This document shows, one piece after another, positions 3,201 to 13,745 of a stretch of 64,000 nt of DNA. The position numbers and the translations under genes were made by a program. A model generated the notes under the pieces. The model was not told where the DNA came from, made no database searches, and saw only the letters and a list, made by a program, of their open reading frames with translations. Within the stretch, counting starts at the first letter, position 1. The number at the start of each line of letters is the position of its first letter. Source of the stretch: Acidobacteriota bacterium (lineage in GTDB: Bacteria; Acidobacteriota; Terriglobia; Bryobacterales; Bryobacteraceae); assembly GCA_025350695.1 (NCBI GenBank), contig JANXXI010000386.1, positions 1 to 64,000 of the forward strand. The letters are read 5' to 3'.

Positions 3201-3457
3201 GCACGGCGGCGGTTCAAGGCAAGTAGAGGCGCGGCGAGGCCGAAGCACAACGCAACAGCAATCGACAAAAAGAGCACTACTCGCGCGGCGGTGACGAAAC
3301 CGGGAGCGAACTCAAGCGAATTTAAGATGATCACCAGCGCACAAGTCGCCGTGAGGGCCGCGAGCGCTGCGATGGCCAAGCCGCGGGCAGTAGCGCCCCA
3401 ACGGAAACGGCTCTCAATTCTATTCAAATATGCTGCCAATGATTCGCGAGGGTTCAT
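1..3457 (-). CDS. DUF4175-like Gln/Gly-rich membrane protein (3' end outside window)
   Basis: The frame is open from the ATG at 3457 to the left edge, about 1150 codons without a stop. The ORF track misses it because no stop lies in the window. Three hydrophobic segments fall in the first ~170 residues, followed by a beta-rich extracytoplasmic part. A Gly-run linker, a long Gln/Glu/Arg-rich helical part and pure QQG/QG/NGQQ repeats complete the visible protein. Size and layout match DUF4175-type proteins of MoxR/vWA clusters; the family name is from layout, not a search. Its ATG overlaps the upstream stop (ATGA), so it is translationally coupled to the BatA-like gene and is the last visible gene of the operon. 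Confidence 0.75.
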   Translation of the reverse strand, partial: MNPRESLAAYLNRIESRFRWGATARGLAIAALAALTATCALVIILNSLEFAPGFVTAARVVLFLSIAVALCFGLAAPLLALNRRRAAHRMEEKYPEFRERLVTFADKENQEEQDPFLPLIAADALKVSANAEPSSIVPNSFIAGFASAALALCGILAWLIFAGPGFMGYGANLLWAGPPRIDAPGVNGLNKAIKVTPGSRKVRRRMDQMVTAQLTGFHAPIVKMFARYHSGSKWEQAAMLSQGQNNGYEFLFAGLPESVDYYVEGAGVKSETFTLTAVDLPSVKKMRVTYQFPSSLGMKPVTEEPAGDLRAIEGTQAILNIETDKPLTTGMLVLDNGTRIELKPKEGNWLEARVPITKDGLYYIAAMDEGQPVRLTDDYFIEARKDADPVIRVKRPGRDMKVSPIEEVPFEIEATDDYGLRDLQLHYSVNGGEEKTLALGGGGKEIKGKTMLSLEEFNMVPGDVVSFYATVKDAKTTAQTDMYFLEAQPFEKEYSQSQQGGGGGGGGGEQEAKVSERQKELIAATWNQLRNRFATPVQNKESAKFLSEQQAKLSEQAKSLAQRMRSRETGGSSAEFEQFAKNMDQAVKAMGGASGKLKEAQLQPSLADQQKALQYLMRAEAIFKQIQVAFGSKGGGGGGGGGAGRELESLFDLELDTEKNQFESGQQASAEQKAKEVDEALEKLKQLAKRQEELADARQRQPQSFEQRWQQDMLRRQAEELRKQMEQLTRGQQSSQQQGQQGQQGQQGQQGQQGQQGQQGQQGQSGQSGQSGQSGQSGQQGGQQQRQADQQNAGNRNQEQGPRGQQQRQQQQMSPQRERLREMAGANDVDPRLKQALERLDAATRDMQRAGDSKQGAETAQSAADARRAAERLSEAKDLLGGLRGQQVSDRVRELSQRTTDLSDKQKDFSERLKRAFPNANAGPQSGQSSQALGQEKDAMYEKFQGIERSMQDALRELTNGRSDAAGKLREGLNLMQQDQVGLRMKYNAGNIRNGYGAQPQVRQLEDLVTNDLDKLKNLIQQAERSIDGQGRGASEKERGLAGVEKLREQMERMAQGGRQGQQGQGQGQNGQQGQGQNGQQSGNQQGKQGQGQGQGQQAQGQGQQGQGQGQGQNGQQSGNQQGKQGQGQGQGQQAQGQGQQGQGQGQGQGQG
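1130..1256 (-). repeat. Short tandem repeats encoding QQG/QSG runs
   Basis: Repeats of a 9-bp unit (TTGTTGGCC/TTGTTGTCC-like on the plus strand) encode consecutive QQG and SGQ tripeptides in the DUF4175-like protein. This is a second low-complexity block, separate from the one at the left edge. Confidence 0.75.
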
Positions 3458-5508
3458 GCGGCCTCCTTATGTATCTTATCGTCGATTTCATCGTCAACCG
3501 CCTCACCCGTTTCAAGGTGTCGCGACGCGATGAAGCTTTCAGCCAATACGGCCAGTAAAAGTAATGCTAATAGCGGCCGCCAGTAGGTGACAGGTTGCGG
3601 CTTTTCAAAATCGGAAGCGGCGGCTTGTGCGCCGGTGGCGGCGTCAGCCTTGCCCTTATTCTCCCAAAGTGCGAGAGTTTCCGGCGGCACCATGGCAAGG
3701 TTCGATTCAAGCCGCGGCGCATTCACCGCCACCATCGATTGGCGGCCTTGGGCGCGGCGGATTTCGTAGAAACCTTCGCGATCGAGTGAAATGGTTTGGG
3801 CTTTGAGCGATTCTTCAAGCGACAAAACCCGCTTGCCGTCAGGATCTAAAATCTCAATGTTGGTAGCACGCTCCCGTGCCGTGCGAAGTTCAAGGGGTGC
3901 GCCCACAAACATGTTGGTAGCCGATTCCGTTTCGCGCGCCAGCCAGCGAGCCGATTGCTCCACCAAAGGCAGGAAGGTTGGGTGAAGCGGCAGATCGTTC
4001 GCCACGTTATCGAAGGCGGACGCCAACACCATGATGCGGCCTTCCCCCATCTGCTTTTCGGCCATGATCCAGTTGCCGTTCGATACCCGCGCCATGTGAC
4101 GCCAGCCTTGCCCTTGTACGTTTACGATCTGATAGAACTTGACCCGGTCAAGACCGGCGGTTTTAGCAATCACCGGATTCGTGGTGTCCGTCCAGGTGAT
4201 GTTGTAAAAACGCTCCGCACTGCGCGATGCGATGCGGGTTCCGTCAAGCGCATCTCCCGTAACAGGAACTTTGCCGGAGCCGACCGAAGAGCGGCCAAGG
4301 GTAATCAATACCGCGCCGCCGGCGTTGACGTAGCGTTTCAACGAGTCTTCAAAGCTCTGGGCCAGCGGTCCGGGATCGGAGAGAACAATGAAGGCGAACT
4401 TCTCCGGAGATTGGTTGAGGGCTTGTCCGGCGGTAACTACGTCCATCACGAAATTGCCGTTACCGGCGGCCTCCAGCGCGGTGCGATAGTAGAGCGGCGA
4501 ACGGGCGTCGTCGCTGGAGTGAACGAAGAGCACGCGACGGGGGTCGGCGCGTTCGACGGCGAAACGGAAGACGTCGTCGGAAGGAAACTCGTCAGGCGGC
4601 TCGATGCGAATCTCGCATTTATTGAAACCATAGCTGCTATCGAGGGACACGAATTCGACCGAAGCGCGACCGTCAGCGGCGAGGTCAATCGATTTTGAAT
4701 CAAGCGTTTTACCGTTGGCGATAAGCTTCACTTGCTTCTTCGCGGCTGGCGTTGCATAACCAACGATGGTCGCTTGGACGCGAGCCTTCTTTGTGTCAAA
4801 TATGCGGCCCGACGCGGTGACGGTTTCAACCGTCCAATTGGGCTTGGCTGACTCCCGGGTGCGGTGGACGGTCAGTTTCGCGTCGGCAGGCATGGCCAGA
4901 TCGCTAAAGTTAGCGGGCATCGAAGTCTGCTGCGCGTCGGTAAAAAAGTGAACTTCCAGAGGGACGCGTTCGGCTTCGGCGATGCCACGGATCGCCCGGC
5001 CAAGTTCGGAATAATCGCTACGTTCATCGGAAGGGGCGATAGCCTCGACGGAGGCGCGTAGTTGGCCCGGATCGGAAATCATCTGCGACATGGCGCGGGA
5101 GTGCATGCCGACTGCGAGCACTTCAGCGCGGGCGCCGTTGCCAATGCCGGCCGCGAGAGCCGCCGCCTCGCGCTTTGCCTTTTCCAGTTGAGCGCCCTGG
5201 CGCATGCTGAACGAATGATCGACCGCGATGACCACGTTGCGCTTTCCGCTATTGGCGCTGGAAGGCTTCTGGAGGATATATGGTCCGGCAAATAGCAAGG
5301 CCAGTAAGATTAGCAGAAGCAAACGCAGAACGAACAGAAGGATATGCTTCAGCCGCTTATGCTTTACCGAGCTTTGCGTTCGCTTTTCAAAGAACATCAG
5401 CGAGCTGAAGGGCACGGGAATTTGTTTGTGCTGCTTCAGCAAATGAAGATAGATCGGCAGTCCGACGGCCAGTAGGCCACCGAGGAACCATGGAGAGAGG
5501 AATCCCAT
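3454..5508 (-). CDS. BatA-type membrane protein with vWA domain
   Basis: 684 aa. The N-terminus (MGFLSPWFLGGLLAVGLPI) and a second hydrophobic helix at ~58-76 form the double-TM BatA signature. A vWA domain follows from ~87 with the MIDAS motif DHSFS. Residues ~335-480 look like a glutamine-amidotransferase-type Rossmann domain. A last TM helix lies at ~650-665, so most of the protein should face the periplasm. The stop overlaps the next ATG (ATGA), and the upstream DUF58 gene ends 1 bp before its start. In known Bat-type clusters such proteins work with MoxR ATPases; the exact role here is unknown. Confidence 0.88.
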   Translation of the reverse strand: MGFLSPWFLGGLLAVGLPIYLHLLKQHKQIPVPFSSLMFFEKRTQSSVKHKRLKHILLFVLRLLLLILLALLFAGPYILQKPSSANSGKRNVVIAVDHSFSMRQGAQLEKAKREAAALAAGIGNGARAEVLAVGMHSRAMSQMISDPGQLRASVEAIAPSDERSDYSELGRAIRGIAEAERVPLEVHFFTDAQQTSMPANFSDLAMPADAKLTVHRTRESAKPNWTVETVTASGRIFDTKKARVQATIVGYATPAAKKQVKLIANGKTLDSKSIDLAADGRASVEFVSLDSSYGFNKCEIRIEPPDEFPSDDVFRFAVERADPRRVLFVHSSDDARSPLYYRTALEAAGNGNFVMDVVTAGQALNQSPEKFAFIVLSDPGPLAQSFEDSLKRYVNAGGAVLITLGRSSVGSGKVPVTGDALDGTRIASRSAERFYNITWTDTTNPVIAKTAGLDRVKFYQIVNVQGQGWRHMARVSNGNWIMAEKQMGEGRIMVLASAFDNVANDLPLHPTFLPLVEQSARWLARETESATNMFVGAPLELRTARERATNIEILDPDGKRVLSLEESLKAQTISLDREGFYEIRRAQGRQSMVAVNAPRLESNLAMVPPETLALWENKGKADAATGAQAAASDFEKPQPVTYWRPLLALLLLAVLAESFIASRHLETGEAVDDEIDDKIHKEAA

Positions 5509-5509
5509 T

Positions 5510-6397
5510 TTAGTTCCTCCCCTTGCGAAGCGTTAGATATTCGCGCAGTGCGGCGTCGAGCGGGGCGTCTGTCATGATTTGGCAATAATCGAGGCCGTTC
5601 GACTCGGCTTCCGATTTAAGCTCCGCTATGTGAGCGTCGATTTTTGGGCCGTATTCGTTGCGCGCGTAATCGGGCGTCACCTCCACGGTACGATTGGTTT
5701 CGGAATCGACTAGAAGAACGGAATCGCGAAACTTGGGGCGGAGCTCTTGCGGATCAAGCAAGTGGAACAGTACGACATCGTTGCCATGGAACCGCAACGG
5801 CTTGATGGTGTCGACAATTTTCTTGGGAGATTCCCAGAAGTCGGAAACAACGGCGGTGATGCCTCGGCGGCGATGGAATTGCTGGAAATGAAAGAACGGC
5901 TTGGCGTAATCGGTGCGAGCGGCTGGAACGGCTTTGTCCAAGGCATGCAACACCCGGTGAAGTTGCCCTTGGCGCGAGGACGGCTGCACATAGTGGCGGA
6001 TCTCATCGTCGAAAACAAGGACGCCGTAAGCATCCCGCTGAAGGTTCGCCATGTACAACATGCTGGCTGTGAGAAAGCGGCCGTAGTCTATCTTGCTGAC
6101 GCCCGTTGAGGAGAAGCCCATGGAGGCGCTGGCGTCCAGAATGACGGTGACTTGTGAGTTGGTTTCGCCGCGAAAACGCTTCAGGACAATTTTCTCGGTT
6201 CGAGCGAAGACATTCCAATCGACGTGTCGCAGATCATCCCCTTCGGTGTAGGCGCGGTACTCGGCGAACTCCTGACTGAAACCAAAGTCGGGAGAACGAT
6301 GAAGCCCGGAGACGAAGCCGTCAACCACGGTCTTCGCCACAAGTTCGAGGTTGGAGATACTAGCCAACACCGACGGATTGAGAAAGCGCTCGAGCAT
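5510..6397 (-). CDS. DUF58 domain protein (vWA-like MoxR partner)
   Basis: 295 aa with the DUF58 hallmark LRHVDWNVFARTEKI at ~56-70 and a vWA-like part with DASASM at ~88-93. No TM segment is evident, so it is probably cytosolic or peripheral. It lies 5 bp after moxR and 1 bp before the BatA-like gene. DUF58 proteins are the standard companions of MoxR ATPases and are thought to link the ATPase to vWA membrane proteins; that role is from family knowledge. Confidence 0.92.
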   Translation of the reverse strand: MLERFLNPSVLASISNLELVAKTVVDGFVSGLHRSPDFGFSQEFAEYRAYTEGDDLRHVDWNVFARTEKIVLKRFRGETNSQVTVILDASASMGFSSTGVSKIDYGRFLTASMLYMANLQRDAYGVLVFDDEIRHYVQPSSRQGQLHRVLHALDKAVPAARTDYAKPFFHFQQFHRRRGITAVVSDFWESPKKIVDTIKPLRFHGNDVVLFHLLDPQELRPKFRDSVLLVDSETNRTVEVTPDYARNEYGPKIDAHIAELKSEAESNGLDYCQIMTDAPLDAALREYLTLRKGRN

Positions 6398-6402
6398 TCG
6401 TG

Positions 6403-7419
6403 TTAAGCCCTGGGTACGGGAATTGCCTCAAAAATTTTCTTGACCACGGCGTCGGCTTCCACCTTATCGGACTCGGCGTGAAAGTTGAGCAACAGGCGAT
6501 GGCGCAAGATCGGCGCTGCAAGCGCAAGGATGTCTTCGTTCGACACGTTGTAGCGGCGCTTCACCAGCGCCCGAGCCTTGGCGGCAAGCACCAGGAATTG
6601 AGCTCCACGGACGGAGGCGCCAAAGTTCACATACTTCTTAACGAAGTCGGGAGCCAGCACGTCGGTGGGGCGAGTGGCGCGAACGATGGAGATAGCGTAA
6701 TTGGCTACAGAATCGGCGATTGGCACCATGCGAACGAGCTGCTGCATGGCGATGATTTCCTCCGCGTTAGTCACAGGTTGGGCCGTGACATTGGCGGTTG
6801 TTGTTGTGCGCGACAGGACTTCAAACTCTTCTTGGGGCGACAAGTAGCCCATGAGCGTGTTGAACAGGAAGCGATCCAGTTGCGCTTCCGGCAACGGGTA
6901 GGTGCCTTCCATTTCGATCGGGTTCTGGGTGGCCAACACAAAGAATGGTTTCGGCAAAACGTAATTATTGCCGCGCACGGTACAGCATTTTTCCTGCATG
7001 GCTTCGAGCAACGCCGATTGGGTTTTCGGAGGCGTTCGGTTGACTTCGTCGGCCAGCAGCACGTTAGTGAAGATTGGGCCCGGGACAAAGGTCCACTTAC
7101 GCCGGCCGTTAGTCTCATCCTCTTCAATGATGTCGGTGCCGGTGATATCGGTCGGCATCAGATCGGGTGTGAATTGAATGCGCTTGAAGGTCAGGCCAAG
7201 CGCGTCTGAAATAGTGCGGACCAAGAGGGTTTTAGCCGTACCAGGCATACCAGTAATCAAACAATGTCCGCCGACGAACAAGCTGATGAGCACTTGTTCG
7301 ACGACTTCTTCCTGTCCGACGATGACGCCTCGCACTTGGCGGAGAATGTTCTGTTCAATCTCCTGGAAGCGCGAAACGCGCGACTGGATATCGGTAGTAT
7401 CAATTGTGGTGGATGCCAT
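6403..7419 (-). CDS. moxR: MoxR family AAA+ ATPase
   Basis: 338 aa. Walker A GMPGTAKT at 57-64, Walker B LLADEVNR at ~121-128 and a sensor region (LATQNP) are intact, as in active MoxR proteins. This is the only ATPase of the operon and so the likely chaperone motor acting on the vWA proteins around it. It lies 3 bp after the TPR/peptidase gene and 5 bp before DUF58. What it assembles or activates cannot be told from sequence. Confidence 0.95.
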   Translation of the reverse strand: MASTTIDTTDIQSRVSRFQEIEQNILRQVRGVIVGQEEVVEQVLISLFVGGHCLITGMPGTAKTLLVRTISDALGLTFKRIQFTPDLMPTDITGTDIIEEDETNGRRKWTFVPGPIFTNVLLADEVNRTPPKTQSALLEAMQEKCCTVRGNNYVLPKPFFVLATQNPIEMEGTYPLPEAQLDRFLFNTLMGYLSPQEEFEVLSRTTTTANVTAQPVTNAEEIIAMQQLVRMVPIADSVANYAISIVRATRPTDVLAPDFVKKYVNFGASVRGAQFLVLAAKARALVKRRYNVSNEDILALAAPILRHRLLLNFHAESDKVEADAVVKKIFEAIPVPRA

Positions 7420-7422
7420 TTT

Positions 7423-9621
7423 CTATTTATCCGTAAGCTCCAAAAGCAATTTCTGCGCGGGCCTGAAGCCTGGCGCGGTTTCAAGCGCACTTACTAAACT
7501 CTCTTTGGCCGCGGCTGTGTTGCCGGAGGCGCGCTGGGCGCGAGCCAAATTGTACCAGGAGGCTGCCGCGTCAACCGGCTTGGAGTTGACGGCCGCGGTG
7601 AATTCGCGCACGGCTCCAGCGTTGTTATTTTGTTCCAGCCACAATTCACCCAACTTGCGGTGCAGATCTTCATCCTGCATGGGGTAGAAGTAATTGATAC
7701 GGTCGTAGACGGCCGCGGCTTCCTTCTTGTTACCCTTCTCTTCGAGAAGCTTTCCTAGTTTCTTTAGTACTTCCCTGTCTCGTCCGCCGATTTTGGCGTA
7801 CTTGTTCAGTTCGGTAATAGCCGATTCCTTGTCGTTCTTTGCTAGATAGCTGTCGGCCAACATTTCGTATGTGTTCCCGGCTTCGACGTATTCGGGGTAG
7901 AGGTCTTGGATAGCCAGAGCTTGCTTGATTACTTCGTCGTATTTCTTTTCCTTAAACAGCGTGACAGTTTGTTTCAGTTTGCCGCGCCACTCTTCAAAGT
8001 TCTTAACAGTTTTACCGACTTGCTTATCCAGCCAAGCGAGGAACTCTTTGTCGAAATCTTCCGGCTTCATGCCCAGCTTCTTTTCGACGATCTGTTCGGT
8101 TGTAAGTTTTTCGTTGAAACCGTTCATCATTTCAAGCAGCTTGTCAAAGCCCCAACGCTCGTTGATGTAGTCGCAAATCTTGCCCGCCTGGAAGTAGCTG
8201 ACGGAGACTTGCGCGGGATACTTGGGGCGGACAAAGCCGGAGTTTAGCGTGGCGATGGGCAGAAGTTTTTTATCGCGAATTGCCGTAATTCCTTCGACCG
8301 AGAATCGGTCACCCCATTCCGGGTTGTTGGCGGTTTCTTCGTGCATCGCCATGCCTTCGGCAAACCAGCGGTCCACGCGGTGATGCGTGGCCGTGAGAAC
8401 GAAAACGTGATCGAGCTCATGCCATAACGTGCTGGCCCAGTGGAACGTGCCGGGCTTTCGTCCGGAGGGGGAGTCCATGGCGACTACCGAACCGAAGGTG
8501 ACGCCTAAGGCGCCAAGGCCCGGAAGACCCATGGTGCGCACGGCGAAATCGTCATGATCGGGGTAAACCTCCAAGCGCACTGGGCCGGGCAGTTTCATCT
8601 TGTACTTCTTTTCGTAAGTGGCGATGGCCCGTTCAAGCTCCGGTTGAAAGTAGAGCAGGAGCAGCGCGGATTCCTTTTTATGGAGGCGAATGTCGGTAGC
8701 CGGCGTGGTGTACTTTTCAAAGTTCTTGTAGCTATCCAACAGCGTGAGGGTGTTGACCGTGGCAGCATTCTTATACTCGCGTTCGTAGCATTCTTCCAGT
8801 AGCTTCTTGGCTTCAACGTCGTGGCCGAGGCGCATGAGGTTCACGGCAAGTTCCGATTTTGCCTCGAGCAGATCGGGGTCGAGTTCGATTGCTTTGCGAT
8901 AGAGCTTGATGCCTTCTTCGTAGCGGCGGTTGATGACAAAAAAGTGCGCGGCGATGGACCAGGCTTTGCCGTATGTGGGATTGATTTTTAGAATTTTGTC
9001 GATGAACTGCGCCGGATCGCGATCATTCAACATGAAGACGGTGGCCTCAATGGCAAGCGCGTCCAGCGATTCCGGATCCAGTTTTTCGGCGCGTGCAGCT
9101 TCTTCTCCGGCCAGGATTTCGTTGCCTTCGTCAAGAGCAAGACGAGCGAGCAGCTCCTGAGCTTCCACCAAAGTTGGGTCTAGCTTAAGAGCCTCGTTGG
9201 CTTGTTGCACAGCCTTGGACTCAAATGAATCGGCGGCTACCAACGCCAAGCCGAGGTGGGCGGGCGCGTAATCCTTGTTGATTTCGAGTGCTTCGGCGAA
9301 CAAGTCCGCGGCATCTGATTTTTGGAAATGCTCAAGGTACATGCGGCCCCAACGGACGCGAATTTCCGGGTCCTTTGGTTTCGCATCGACGGCCTTTCTA
9401 AAAAGGTCGTTGGCGGCCTTGTAATTCTTCAGGCCCCAGAAACCTTCAGCGATTAGGGCGGCATCCTTCGATTCCACTAGCTTGTTGTAGCAGGCGGTAG
9501 CTTGCTCGCGACGTCCGTGCTTGCGGTGATCTTCACAAGTTGCTACTGGCCCACGAACAGGCGGGGTTGCCGCGTAGTTGCAGGACGAAAGGAAGAGGAG
9601 GGCAGCCGTGAGGAATCTCAT
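7423..9621 (-). CDS. TPR lipoprotein with HExxH (gluzincin-type) peptidase domain
   Basis: 732 aa. The N-terminus ends in a lipobox-like LSSC at ~11-14, so it is probably a lipoprotein. TPR-like helices fill ~40-300. A metallopeptidase domain follows with HELDH at 401-405 and a downstream EGMAMHEE at ~422-429, the gluzincin pattern of two His plus Glu. TPRs resume at ~560-732. Its ATG overlaps the stop of the caspase-like gene (ATGA). It carries the only intact peptidase signature in the operon. Substrate unknown. Confidence 0.85.
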   Translation of the reverse strand: MRFLTAALLFLSSCNYAATPPVRGPVATCEDHRKHGRREQATACYNKLVESKDAALIAEGFWGLKNYKAANDLFRKAVDAKPKDPEIRVRWGRMYLEHFQKSDAADLFAEALEINKDYAPAHLGLALVAADSFESKAVQQANEALKLDPTLVEAQELLARLALDEGNEILAGEEAARAEKLDPESLDALAIEATVFMLNDRDPAQFIDKILKINPTYGKAWSIAAHFFVINRRYEEGIKLYRKAIELDPDLLEAKSELAVNLMRLGHDVEAKKLLEECYEREYKNAATVNTLTLLDSYKNFEKYTTPATDIRLHKKESALLLLYFQPELERAIATYEKKYKMKLPGPVRLEVYPDHDDFAVRTMGLPGLGALGVTFGSVVAMDSPSGRKPGTFHWASTLWHELDHVFVLTATHHRVDRWFAEGMAMHEETANNPEWGDRFSVEGITAIRDKKLLPIATLNSGFVRPKYPAQVSVSYFQAGKICDYINERWGFDKLLEMMNGFNEKLTTEQIVEKKLGMKPEDFDKEFLAWLDKQVGKTVKNFEEWRGKLKQTVTLFKEKKYDEVIKQALAIQDLYPEYVEAGNTYEMLADSYLAKNDKESAITELNKYAKIGGRDREVLKKLGKLLEEKGNKKEAAAVYDRINYFYPMQDEDLHRKLGELWLEQNNNAGAVREFTAAVNSKPVDAAASWYNLARAQRASGNTAAAKESLVSALETAPGFRPAQKLLLELTDK

Positions 9622-10691
9622 TTTTCGAGTTCCTCTTGGATTTTGGCGAGTTGGACCAGCAATTGGGCCAGCCTCTTACGATATTCGTCAACGGGGGTCG
9701 CTGCTTTTTCGTATTTCAGCTTGTCGATCTGGCCTTCAAATTCTTGCTTCTGCTCTACTAGTTTCTGTTTTTCAGCCGAGAATTTTTGGACGTTGCCAAG
9801 AGACATCAACGGGAAGCGGGCGGCGGCAAGGCCCTTGCCGTTTTCGGCGGAAGGGGCGCGGACGGCTTCGCCTTTACCGGTGTCTTCCATCACGGCGTGC
9901 TCGGTGGCCAGCCGCTTTTGTGTTTCGAAGAACTTCACGGTTTTCTGGTCGGCGTATTTAAAAGCCTCGAGGGCGCTGAGAGTTTCGTTCTTGTCGGTGT
10001 CTGCGCCCGGGTCGCGGAAGGCTTCCACAAAGTAGCGGGCAAACAGCGTGGCGTTCTTTTCGGTACCGTTACGCGTGGCGGCGATGATGGTGCGATTGGC
10101 CTTCTGCAGCGCACTGATTGAGGCGCCCGCGGCGGAGGTCGTGTTTACGACCAGTTGCCGCGTGGCTGGAATCTTATCGAGCCAGCCGGCGAGTTCCGTG
10201 GCGGAAAGGTCGGGGCCGGGGATGTTGAACTTGTATTCACTATTGTCAAACGTGCCGTGGCCGATTAGGATGACGGCGAAGTTGTCGTCGGGCTTTACCT
10301 TCGTTGTAAATTCGGCGAAGGCCTTGCGCAGCGTTTCTTTGGTGGCTTGCTTGCCGGAGTAGGTGTTGACTTGGGCTCCGGGGATGGCGCGCAGGGATTT
10401 GTCTAGGTCGGTGGCCCAACCGGCGAAGCGGACTTCGTATTCGGGTTCTCCGCCTAGGCCGGCGATGGTGACGTACCAGGTGTCGGCTTGGGCGGCTGTG
10501 AGGCTGAAGAGAGCTAGAATTGTTAAAGTTCCGAGAGTTTTTGCGAGACCTGAGCAGGCTGACCAGGGGGTCAGCCGCAGACCAGGGGGTCCGCCCCACT
10601 TCTGCATTTGCACACTTAGAGATTCTTGCTTTGAATTTAGAGATTTCTGCTTTGAAAGATTCTTCTGTTTTGATGGATTCAACAGGTTCAT
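9618..10691 (-). CDS. Secreted caspase-fold (C13-like) protein, catalytic Cys missing
   Basis: I prefer the ATG at 10691 over the track start at 10856: it overlaps the upstream stop as ATGA, and the longer version lies wholly in the upstream gene. This gives 357 aa. A signal-like segment (~50-69, ending AQA) is preceded by an odd polar leader. The body resembles peptidase C13/caspase folds: GHG at 144-146, then a strand ending NTTSAAG at ~183-189 where a Cys would be expected, then ATRNGTEKN and DTDKNETLS. No Cys lies near the expected position, so it is probably catalytically dead or uses another residue. The C-terminus (~310-357) is coiled coil. Confidence 0.72.
   Translation of the reverse strand: MNLLNPSKQKNLSKQKSLNSKQESLSVQMQKWGGPPGLRLTPWSACSGLAKTLGTLTILALFSLTAAQADTWYVTIAGLGGEPEYEVRFAGWATDLDKSLRAIPGAQVNTYSGKQATKETLRKAFAEFTTKVKPDDNFAVILIGHGTFDNSEYKFNIPGPDLSATELAGWLDKIPATRQLVVNTTSAAGASISALQKANRTIIAATRNGTEKNATLFARYFVEAFRDPGADTDKNETLSALEAFKYADQKTVKFFETQKRLATEHAVMEDTGKGEAVRAPSAENGKGLAAARFPLMSLGNVQKFSAEKQKLVEQKQEFEGQIDKLKYEKAATPVDEYRKRLAQLLVQLAKIQEELEK
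10560..10600. repeat. Short direct repeat GACCAGGGGGTC x2 inside a coding N-terminus
   Basis: The plus strand reads GACCAGGGGGTC twice with a short spacer. It encodes the unusual GPPGLRLTPWSA stretch before the signal peptide of the caspase-like protein. Next to it AAGATTCT-like and TTTGAA-like motifs recur, giving the NLSKQKSLNSKQ leader. It looks like intergenic repeat sequence captured in frame. Confidence 0.6.
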
Positions 10692-12934
10692 ACGGCTCCC
10701 CATTTCCGGCGCAATAGCCATTCCGTGGCTCGTAATGCCAGAAGCATCAAGAAAAAGATCGGCATGTTCCATAAATCGTAAGTCTCGCGCGTTGTGATGC
10801 CGGCTTCCGAGAAAGTGATTTCGGTGGGGATCTTGCCGGCCATATCCGGCTTCCAATATCTCCCTCCCGTTTCTTCAGAGAGTTTTTCGAGCAGTTCTTT
10901 GTTCTGCTCGGAGTAGAAATTTTCGGTGACTCCGTCCTCGCGGCGGAACAGAAGCGAATCCGCTCCTACTTTTTGTCCGTTGCGAGTGGCTTCAATTTCA
11001 GCCACGTAATCGCCGGCAACAGGGGCGTTCCATTGCGCGGTGTAGACGCCGGGTGTAACGGGGTCGGGAGCAAGCTTGATTTGCGCGGCTACACTTTGCG
11101 GTCCTAGAATGCGGGCGGTGACATCGGCGTCAGCTACAGCGAGGTAGTTTTTCTCGCGGACTTCAACGCGAATCGGCAGCTTACCATCGTCGGAAAGCAG
11201 CGGATTGGGAGTTGAGGCGATGACCTGGCCCTGGGTTGCGGAACTGAGCCAGCGAAGCAACTGCTGCCAGAACATTTCATGGGTCATGTCTTCCTTGGGC
11301 TGAGTCATCTGCCAGCGCCAGCTACCTGAAGTAGCGAACACGCCGACTCGGCCGCGCCCGTAGTTTTGAATCGCCAGTAGAGGAAAGACGCCTTTCGGCG
11401 TGGACATTTCGGCCAACACCACGGCGCCAGGCTTTGCCCTGCCCACGGCCTGGTAATCGGCAAGTTTTGGCATGGTCTTCCAGCGTTCCAAATTCTTATC
11501 AGGATCCTCCACCAACCGAAGGATCATGCTTTCCTTGCCGGATGGCGTGACTATCGGGATAGCCAGTTCCCGTTCGAAGGTTCCCTTGGCGCTAGGAAGA
11601 GCGACGGGAAGCATGTCGATGAGGCCAGTTTTGTCATAGCCGCCGTCAGAGAGCGACGCGCGCCCGCCCAGGAACAGAACGCCGCCGCCGCGCCGATCGG
11701 CAAACTGCTTGATCATCTCCTGTTGCGTCAAACTGAAGTAACCGGAATCGACACTGCCTATAATCAGACCGTCGTATTGAAACAACTCTTCCGGGGTGAG
11801 AGGAAATCCATTTTCCAATTCCTTGGGACTGGATGCGCCTTGACGCAAAATCTTGTTCTGTGTGACGCGCAACATGGAAACCAGTTGAATGCTGCGATCA
11901 TCCTCAACGCCTCGGCGGATGAACTTGAACTCCCAGCGTGGTTCGCCTTCGATGTAAAGGATGCGGGGTTTGCGGCCTTCAACCACCACGAAACGGCTCA
12001 TGGAATTGTTGGATTGATTTTCTTCACCGTCCATCAATTTCAGGGAAACGGCAAGGCGGCGAGCGCCGGCAAGGCCCGCACTAAACATTAGCGATTCCGT
12101 TTGCTCTTCGCCGTCTTTGGCCAACGTCACATCTTTGGCCGCCAGGGTTTTCGCGCCATCCTTGATTTCGATTCGCGACTTTTGACCAGCGTATCCGCGA
12201 TTGCGGAAACGAACTGCCGCGCTGAGGCGGGCGTCGGACAGGGCGCGAATCGGCACGTCGACATTGCGAATTTCCAAGTCCTTAGTGAGTTGTTCCTTGC
12301 CGAAGCCGATGGTGTGAACGGGAATGCGCTGGCTGCGAATGTCGGTAATGGTTTGGCGATCAATGCCACCGGCGCTATCAGCCCCGTCGCTAAGCAGCAA
12401 CACTGCTCCAACGGGCAAGCCGGAAGATTCGGCCGTGAGTTGTTTCAGGCCATCGCCGAGTTTACTCACCGTGGCGTTACCGGTTAGCGCATCTGTATTG
12501 GCAATGCGGTGGAGCCCCTGATCAATGCTGTAGAGACGAACCTGGAAGCGCTTTTCAAGATCCTTGAGCAGCGCCGAATCGAGAATTTTCCTGGCGGCAT
12601 CAAGGCGCGTTCCGTCGGAATCATTACGCTTCATGCTGCTGGAATTGTCGACTACGACGGCAACGATATTTTGTTGGGGCTTCAAGGCTGAGACGCTGAG
12701 CGCTGGTTGCCAAAGCATTAGTAACAGCAAACAGACGACGGTGGCTTGCAGGGCGGTAAGTATCGCCGAACGCAGATTGTTCCAGACCGGCTTACTACGC
12801 CACATGACTAGTGACAAAGCAGCAATGGCGGCGACCGTCAACAGGATCAAAAGCCACTCCGGCCAGCCGGAGAGCAGCACCAATTTGCCCTTGGAGTAAA
12901 CCGTCGACGGATATTTGAAGAAGAATTCGAACAT
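10688..12934 (-). CDS. Membrane vWA protein with amidotransferase-like domain
   Basis: 748 aa. TM helices at ~25-45 and ~58-78 precede a vWA domain with DNSSS at 96-100. A CARDB-like beta domain follows (~215-325), then a Rossmann/glutamine-amidotransferase-like domain from ~335 (ILYIEGEPRWEF, GGGVLFLGGR), an Ig-like part and a terminal TM helix. This is the second membrane vWA protein of the operon; it is larger than the BatA-like one and lacks the BatA N-terminus. It starts 1 bp after the DUF4159 gene and overlaps the caspase-like gene by ATGA. Confidence 0.88.
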   Translation of the reverse strand: MFEFFFKYPSTVYSKGKLVLLSGWPEWLLILLTVAAIAALSLVMWRSKPVWNNLRSAILTALQATVVCLLLLMLWQPALSVSALKPQQNIVAVVVDNSSSMKRNDSDGTRLDAARKILDSALLKDLEKRFQVRLYSIDQGLHRIANTDALTGNATVSKLGDGLKQLTAESSGLPVGAVLLLSDGADSAGGIDRQTITDIRSQRIPVHTIGFGKEQLTKDLEIRNVDVPIRALSDARLSAAVRFRNRGYAGQKSRIEIKDGAKTLAAKDVTLAKDGEEQTESLMFSAGLAGARRLAVSLKLMDGEENQSNNSMSRFVVVEGRKPRILYIEGEPRWEFKFIRRGVEDDRSIQLVSMLRVTQNKILRQGASSPKELENGFPLTPEELFQYDGLIIGSVDSGYFSLTQQEMIKQFADRRGGGVLFLGGRASLSDGGYDKTGLIDMLPVALPSAKGTFERELAIPIVTPSGKESMILRLVEDPDKNLERWKTMPKLADYQAVGRAKPGAVVLAEMSTPKGVFPLLAIQNYGRGRVGVFATSGSWRWQMTQPKEDMTHEMFWQQLLRWLSSATQGQVIASTPNPLLSDDGKLPIRVEVREKNYLAVADADVTARILGPQSVAAQIKLAPDPVTPGVYTAQWNAPVAGDYVAEIEATRNGQKVGADSLLFRREDGVTENFYSEQNKELLEKLSEETGGRYWKPDMAGKIPTEITFSEAGITTRETYDLWNMPIFFLMLLALRATEWLLRRKWGAV

Positions 12935-12935
12935 G

Positions 12936-13745
12936 CTAATGGCTCATGGCGTACATGATGTAATTGATGCCTATTCGGTAGGCCAAGCCGGTGAATTTTT
13001 CGGGATAGTAGGGGCTATCGGCATGCTCCCAGGCGTCGCCGAGGTCCATGTTGTGGCAGATGGCTACCATGAGTCGGCCCTTGTTGTCATAGATGCCTTT
13101 CCATTCCGCTTCATAGCCGTCGTACTCGTAGGTTTTGTTGAACGGATAGTTGACCGTGCCAGGGACTTGGAATCGATCATCAAGATCGTAGAGAACGTGA
13201 AAGATTTGATCGTTGTTAGGGATGTCCACAACGGGGCGATCCGGGAAGACGCGGCTCATGGAGGCCATCATGACGTCCCATTCGTAGGTGCCGTGGAAAT
13301 CGTCAGTCATCAAGAAGCCGCCGCGGAGCAGGTACTCGCGGAGTTTGGCGCATTGAGCGTCGGGCAGGTCCCAGTGGCCGGATTCGACCGCATAGATCCA
13401 AGGCCAATTAAAGATGTCATCGGATTCGAGATTCACAACTTGCTCGACGGAGCGAACATGAAGTCGAGTGAGGCGGCGAACACCAGAGGCGAATTGACGG
13501 TCGGCCTTGGGATAATCAATTGTCCAGTGGCCGCGGGCCATCCACGCCCGGTTATTGGACTGCAGAGACGGATACTGCAAGCGGGCGAAGGCCCACTCTG
13601 TCTTTTCGTTGGCGTCCGGTGGGGTGACGAGTGGGGCATTGTCGTCAAAGGGGTAGTCGTTCACGCTCAAACTTCGGCGTTGAGCCAAAGCGGCGGCGAC
13701 AAACGAGATGACCAGCGCCGAAACAGCAAGTCTCCGACGAATCAC
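12936..13745 (-). CDS. DUF4159 domain protein, first gene of the MoxR/vWA operon
   Basis: 269 aa from a GTG start with a strong Shine-Dalgarno (GGAGGG) about 4 bases upstream. A signal peptide (~1-21, ending ALA) precedes a DUF4159 domain: EWAFARLQYP, LREYLLRGGFLMTDDFHG and a C-terminal FTGLAYRIGINYIMYAM. DUF4159 is related to the amidotransferase-like domains of the two vWA proteins downstream. No gene precedes it closely, so the operon promoter should lie in 13746-14087. Confidence 0.88.
   Translation of the reverse strand: MIRRRLAVSALVISFVAAALAQRRSLSVNDYPFDDNAPLVTPPDANEKTEWAFARLQYPSLQSNNRAWMARGHWTIDYPKADRQFASGVRRLTRLHVRSVEQVVNLESDDIFNWPWIYAVESGHWDLPDAQCAKLREYLLRGGFLMTDDFHGTYEWDVMMASMSRVFPDRPVVDIPNNDQIFHVLYDLDDRFQVPGTVNYPFNKTYEYDGYEAEWKGIYDNKGRLMVAICHNMDLGDAWEHADSPYYPEKFTGLAYRIGINYIMYAMSH

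Follow-up and report, generated by a model that had tools for sequence, protein, structure and literature searches.

What does a secreted protein do when it retains the fold of a cysteine peptidase without the cysteine? The question is raised by a gene at 9618..10691 on the minus strand of the 64,000-nucleotide stretch of acidobacterial DNA analysed here (the window). A preliminary description had proposed that its product has a caspase/C13 fold and has kept the GHG motif but contains no cysteine. The open reading frame is uninterrupted and real, and its strand, left unstated in that description, is minus. The ATG start codon of this gene, which we call pseudo-C13, shares the bases ATGA with the stop codon (TGA) of the vWA gene upstream, and there is a 4-base overlap with the adjoining frame at each end. 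A lone pseudogene or a sequencing error is excluded, since among 61 genomes from relatives of the window the gene is carried by 54; those that are named belong to the Bryobacterales and other Acidobacteriota. The hydrophobic core of a signal peptide (GLAKTLGTLTILALFSLTAAQA, 10485..10550, minus strand) lies directly N-terminal to a mature domain of ~289 residues, and a hydrophobic stretch precedes the mature domain in all 81 close sequences (the window copy and 80 near relatives). Mature numbering is that of the ORF minus 68. The absence of cysteine holds for the mature domain, including the catalytic site, but not for the ORF as a whole, which has a single cysteine (Cys46) N-terminal to the predicted mature domain.

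The N-terminus of the window copy is unusual in containing a dispersed repeat. Its core, GTGGGGCGGACCCCCTGGTCNGCGGCTG, lies at 10572..10599 (minus strand) within about 10530-10660, in frame between the start codon and the signal peptide. The repeat occupies part of the first ~60 residues of the ORF and adds about 45 codons. Allowing up to 3 mismatches, the core has 52 matches in the same 7.19 Mb genome, and the reversed control has none; translated copies located elsewhere appear as protein matches. The sister ortholog (L068) lacks the repeat, and there a short signal peptide begins right after ATGA. Upstream of the dispersed repeat, at 10600-10670 (minus strand), there is a brief series of near-repeats (AATCTTTCAAAGCAGAAATCTCTAAATTCAAAGCAAGAATCTCTAAG). 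These too seem to be missing from the sister ortholog, and perhaps belong to the same insertion.

The fold was predicted with AlphaFold2 from the alignment of the 81 close sequences, giving a model with a mean pLDDT of 92.4 and a pTM of 0.80. Foldseek comparison with the PDB placed legumain (4n6o) first, with E = 2.5e-8 and a probability of 1.00, followed by further legumains and asparaginyl endopeptidases (AEPs) together with asparaginyl ligases, MALT1, Dronc and GPI transamidase. Each of the best 50 matches listed is either a clan CD enzyme or a complex that contains one. The TM-scores are moderate (0.5-0.6) at about 12% identity, meaning that the model has the core fold in common with clan CD and a different periphery. 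At the level of sequence, 24 of 57 family members match Pfam Peptidase_C13 (PF01650), the best at 4.7e-8 and some above the gathering cut-off, while Peptidase_C14 matches only 6 of the 57, and more weakly. A profile of the family reaches metacaspase-4 and GSU0716 in the PDB weakly (E = 0.006-0.01). By contrast the window copy gave nothing against PF01650 at E up to 1, and searches of Pfam, NCBIfam and the PDB with this protein as a single sequence returned nothing useful; the family is recognised solely via profiles and structure. A weak match of the window copy to PF16036 (chalcone isomerase-like, E = 0.017) is shown by no other member and was disregarded. The prediction thus bears out the fold that had been suggested, and would place the protein in the legumain (C13) branch of the clan CD (caspase/legumain) fold. 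The C14-type p20 domain that characterizes pseudo-orthocaspases is not what we find, as the best fold matches are to legumain.

The GHG motif is confirmed at residues 144-146 (10254..10262, minus strand), with His145 corresponding to His77 of the mature protein. The position of the catalytic cysteine falls in the sequence NTTSAAG, residues 183-189 (10125..10145, minus strand). It was aligned with Cys-bearing C13/C14-like proteins from other Acidobacteriota. Using hhalign, NTTSAAG is paired with LEPCFSG of a Cys-bearing homologue with E = 6e-12, and Ser186 (mature Ser118, codon 10134-10136) stands in the column of the cysteine. Alignments by hmmsearch to further homologues of this kind give the same column, and in one further profile alignment the pairing of Cys and Ser is uncertain by one residue owing to a gap. 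NTTSAAG is therefore located where the preliminary description had placed it. The alternative that a threonine has replaced the cysteine is ruled out, as the alignments put Thr beside the column and not in it. The protein also retains a cleft motif FNxPGPD and the strand end TAT(R/K)xG.

Finding cysteine in the relatives would have meant that the window copy alone had mutated. Instead GHG and Ser are each present in 81 of the 81 close sequences, and among 200 distinct homologues across the Acidobacteriota not one has Cys at the catalytic position. The residues found there are 177 S, 7 E, 4 A, 4 N, 3 G, 2 T and 2 P, with 1 gap, and Ser is retained in 85-89% of members. Within a phylum sample of 143 sequences Gly76, His77, Gly91, Asp93, Glu174 and Glu196 (mature numbering) are all invariant. 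We constructed a fast FastTree phylogeny of 142 rows from which the column of the Cys site was left out. Ser is found in every major clade of this tree and is therefore probably the ancestral residue, and switches between Ser and another state must have occurred at least 12 times, against none for the GHG His. One of the replacements, by Ala, occurs within the same bacterial family as the window (L038). Three further loci (L205, L235 and L240) have TN-C-SG, where Asn occupies the old Cys site and the next residue is Cys, together with EGHG; these may possibly be a variant with a shifted nucleophile.

Might the serine act as a nucleophile in place of the cysteine? Pseudo-C13 would then be an active, serine-using clan CD peptidase (or a transamidase or esterase), in which Ser186 and His145 form a nucleophile-base pair that was secondarily lost in some lineages. 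The serine lies exactly in the cysteine column, is probably ancestral and is invariant in the close sequences, and the His and the residues of the pocket are invariant as well. However, on at least 12 occasions Ser has given way to A, N, T, P, E or G in members that are otherwise intact, including the Ala variant in the same family. Moreover, published clan CD homologues with Ser in place of Cys are regarded as inactive (PMC6657590, and the available text of PMC6426788). Repeated loss of a nucleophile under a fixed His would be unexpected for an enzyme, and is what might be expected of a cleft that binds a ligand. As Ser is repeatedly lost with its partner His fixed, a pseudopeptidase is much likelier than a serine peptidase, and we consider the active variant unlikely. 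A broader version, in which a phylum-wide secreted legumain-like family exchanged Cys-His for Ser-His with retention of chemistry and later lost activity repeatedly, we regard as more doubtful again. If true it would be a serine-type clan CD enzyme whose reaction on a substrate in the envelope is peptide hydrolysis, transamidation or acyl transfer. Nevertheless, against a simple dead site, Ser is retained more often than a drifting position would need, and few parts of the protein are as conserved as the cleft. Of the two possibilities raised originally, a pseudo-protease or a Ser/Thr variant, the former is thus favoured, and the threonine form of the latter is removed.

The gene is part of a minus-strand operon. 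The order is DUF4159 protein (12936..13745, PF13709 E = 5.6e-46), vWA + GATase1-like membrane protein (10688..12934, PF07090 E = 8.9e-9, VWA_2 5.6e-4), pseudo-C13, TPR + HExxH gluzincin (7423..9621, Peptidase_MA_2 E = 3.6e-11), MoxR AAA+ ATPase (6403..7419, PF07726 E = 1.2e-60), DUF58/vWA protein (5510..6397, PF01882 E = 1.6e-38) and BatA-type vWA membrane protein (3454..5508, PF07584 E = 2.6e-17). The adjoining MoxR, DUF58 and BatA-type vWA genes make this a Bat / MoxR-vWA operon. The MoxR protein is also matched by bpMoxR at 3.1e-10, much more weakly than by AAA_3. PADLOC gave only weak matches, and a defence system is not favoured. Operon order is kept in the 80 near loci as far as their contigs extend, and in these the vWA gene precedes pseudo-C13 (one row is printed in reverse owing to ORF overlap). 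Among 53 distinct wider loci the vWA gene is directly upstream in 51; of the remaining two, one is a contig end and one a frameshifted record. The downstream position is more variable, with the TPR peptidase in 38, MoxR in 4, DUF4159 in 3 and no recognised gene in the remaining 8. In 20 wider loci pseudo-C13 always adjoins the vWA/GATase gene, and several of these have no TPR peptidase or none that was recognised. The constant neighbour, wherever the contig permits a check, is the vWA/GATase gene.

There is a second, paralogous type of operon in other Acidobacteriota (L180, L182, L184, L185, L190 and L196), in which MoxR, DUF58 and BatA are followed by vWA and pseudo-C13. Many copies in this clade read NTT[E/A/G]xSF, without the Ser and the Gly that follows, and some genomes carry both operon types. 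Beyond the Acidobacteriota the same cluster was found in one genome, on a megaplasmid of Gemmatirosa kalamazoonensis (Gemmatimonadota). There the gene (L258, 11860-12738) is apparently split across two frames, with the N-terminal part lying within 10223-12139; this appears to be a frameshift or sequencing error.

The proximity of the TPR-HExxH gene, which the preliminary description had remarked upon, raises the possibility that pseudo-C13 is a dedicated regulator or substrate-presenting partner of this metallopeptidase. The peptidase itself is real. HExxH is present in 77 of 81 orthologous ORFs and the downstream E is also conserved; a conserved lipobox is not claimed, the pattern being present in only 1 of 81 orthologs. 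The gene overlaps pseudo-C13 by 4 bases, and follows it in the close loci as well as in most of the wider ones. However, several clusters (L179, L181, L184, L185, L190, L191 and L196) show no TPR-HExxH gene and yet keep pseudo-C13 beside vWA/GATase. A special link between the two is consequently no general rule, and an exclusive partnership with the peptidase seems improbable.

Two further elements of the protein could be important for function. The first is the calcium-binding-like loop noted at the outset, DTDKNE, which is indeed present from residue 231. It begins a 12-residue loop of EF-hand type (DTDKNETLSALE, 9966..10001, minus strand) that conforms to the pattern DxDxNxxxSxxE, from which calcium binding may be anticipated. 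The last Glu of the loop is the invariant Glu174, and Asp163 is conserved at 98.6% in the phylum sample. Over the 57 members analysed with Pfam, EF-hand_5 matches 4 and EF-hand_1 matches 3. The second element is a helical hairpin at the C-terminus, mature residues 238-288 (9624..9776, minus strand), predicted by AlphaFold2 as helices 238-259 and 266-288. A further reading casts the protein as a subunit of the vWA/GATase membrane complex, structural or Ca-sensing, and leaves its old cleft wholly unused. It would agree with the conserved loop and the constant vWA neighbour but is very unlikely. The loop is present in Cys-bearing homologues too and may be inherited, and the cleft residues His77, Asn88, Gly91, Asp93 and Thr138 match the loop in conservation, which pure structure would not need.

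Pseudopeptidases of clan CD are already known, and it is instructive to compare them with pseudo-C13. Legumain (asparaginyl endopeptidase, C13, PF01650) resembles it in predicted fold, GHG, secretion signal and as the best PDB fold match. It differs in having the catalytic Cys, with C-x-S-G where the pseudo-C13 family has S-x-S-G (S-A-A-G in the window copy), and a prodomain where pseudo-C13 has the helical hairpin; the EF-hand-type loop, the Bat-type operon and an identity of about 12% also set pseudo-C13 apart. The pseudo-orthocaspases of Cyanobacteria and Alphaproteobacteria are C14-like proteins in which, according to the available text of PMC6426788, Cys is often changed to Ser and inactivity is presumed; the His is usually altered too, giving mostly YS, YN or FS. 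That text describes a caspase (p20) type with a link to photosynthesis and makes no mention of a Bat-type operon. Pseudo-C13, in contrast, is legumain-like, keeps the His without exception, and has the Ca-type loop and a fixed envelope operon. TbMCA4 (MCA4 of Trypanosoma brucei), also of clan CD, has Ser at the Cys site and is inactive, with a reported non-catalytic function, but is a single eukaryotic metacaspase in another context (reviewed in PMC6657590). In SERA5, with an unrelated papain-like fold, Ser-for-Cys has been shown to be non-enzymatic with peptide binding kept (PMC4671257).

As for the operon, it has been proposed that Bat (Bacteroides aerotolerance) proteins assemble into a periplasmic complex, and what they do is still elusive. 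The likeness extends to MoxR, the BatA-type vWA membrane proteins and the TPR domain, and in its available portion the same source does not mention a clan CD homologue, the vWA/GATase-DUF4159 pair or an HExxH gene (PMC3557215). MoxR-vWA ternary conflict systems combine MoxR and vWA with caspase-like domains, and include inactive enzyme domains. Their third component is VMAP, iSTAND, FtsH or a beta-propeller (PMC7159879), none of which is present among the eight window proteins scanned with Pfam. Unlike those systems, pseudo-C13 is predicted to be exported, and its operon is conserved across most relatives.

We therefore favour, with a probability of roughly 60%, a reading in which pseudo-C13 is an exported pseudopeptidase of the C13 branch that does not cleave and serves a MoxR/vWA envelope system as a binding or adaptor module. 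The Cys nucleophile would have been lost before the family spread through the Acidobacteriota and at least one member of the Gemmatimonadota. The protein, which we infer to be catalytically inactive, would be exported and act outside the inner membrane, where a ligand, either a peptide or a protein, could sit in the old substrate cleft and the C-terminal hairpin might dock to a partner protein. The first candidate for this partner is the vWA/GATase protein of the membrane, whose membrane segments and charges point to a probable outward orientation. In clusters that encode it, the TPR-HExxH peptidase may be another. The Ca-type loop would bind calcium, probably stabilising the protein. The setting would be a Bat-type MoxR/DUF58/BatA envelope system, with the MoxR/DUF58 pair presumably acting from the cytoplasm.

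Among the open-licence papers searched we found none that mentions DUF4159, and none that joins Acidobacteria, caspase and legumain, and the pseudo-C13 family and its operon setting may be undescribed. The family adds a conserved, exported and apparently dead protease to a widespread and unexplained type of MoxR/vWA/Bat operon. That Ser has been lost repeatedly while the His never changes offers a natural test of the role of the active-site His in pseudopeptidases, and the ligand of the dead cleft would provide a handle on what this operon does.
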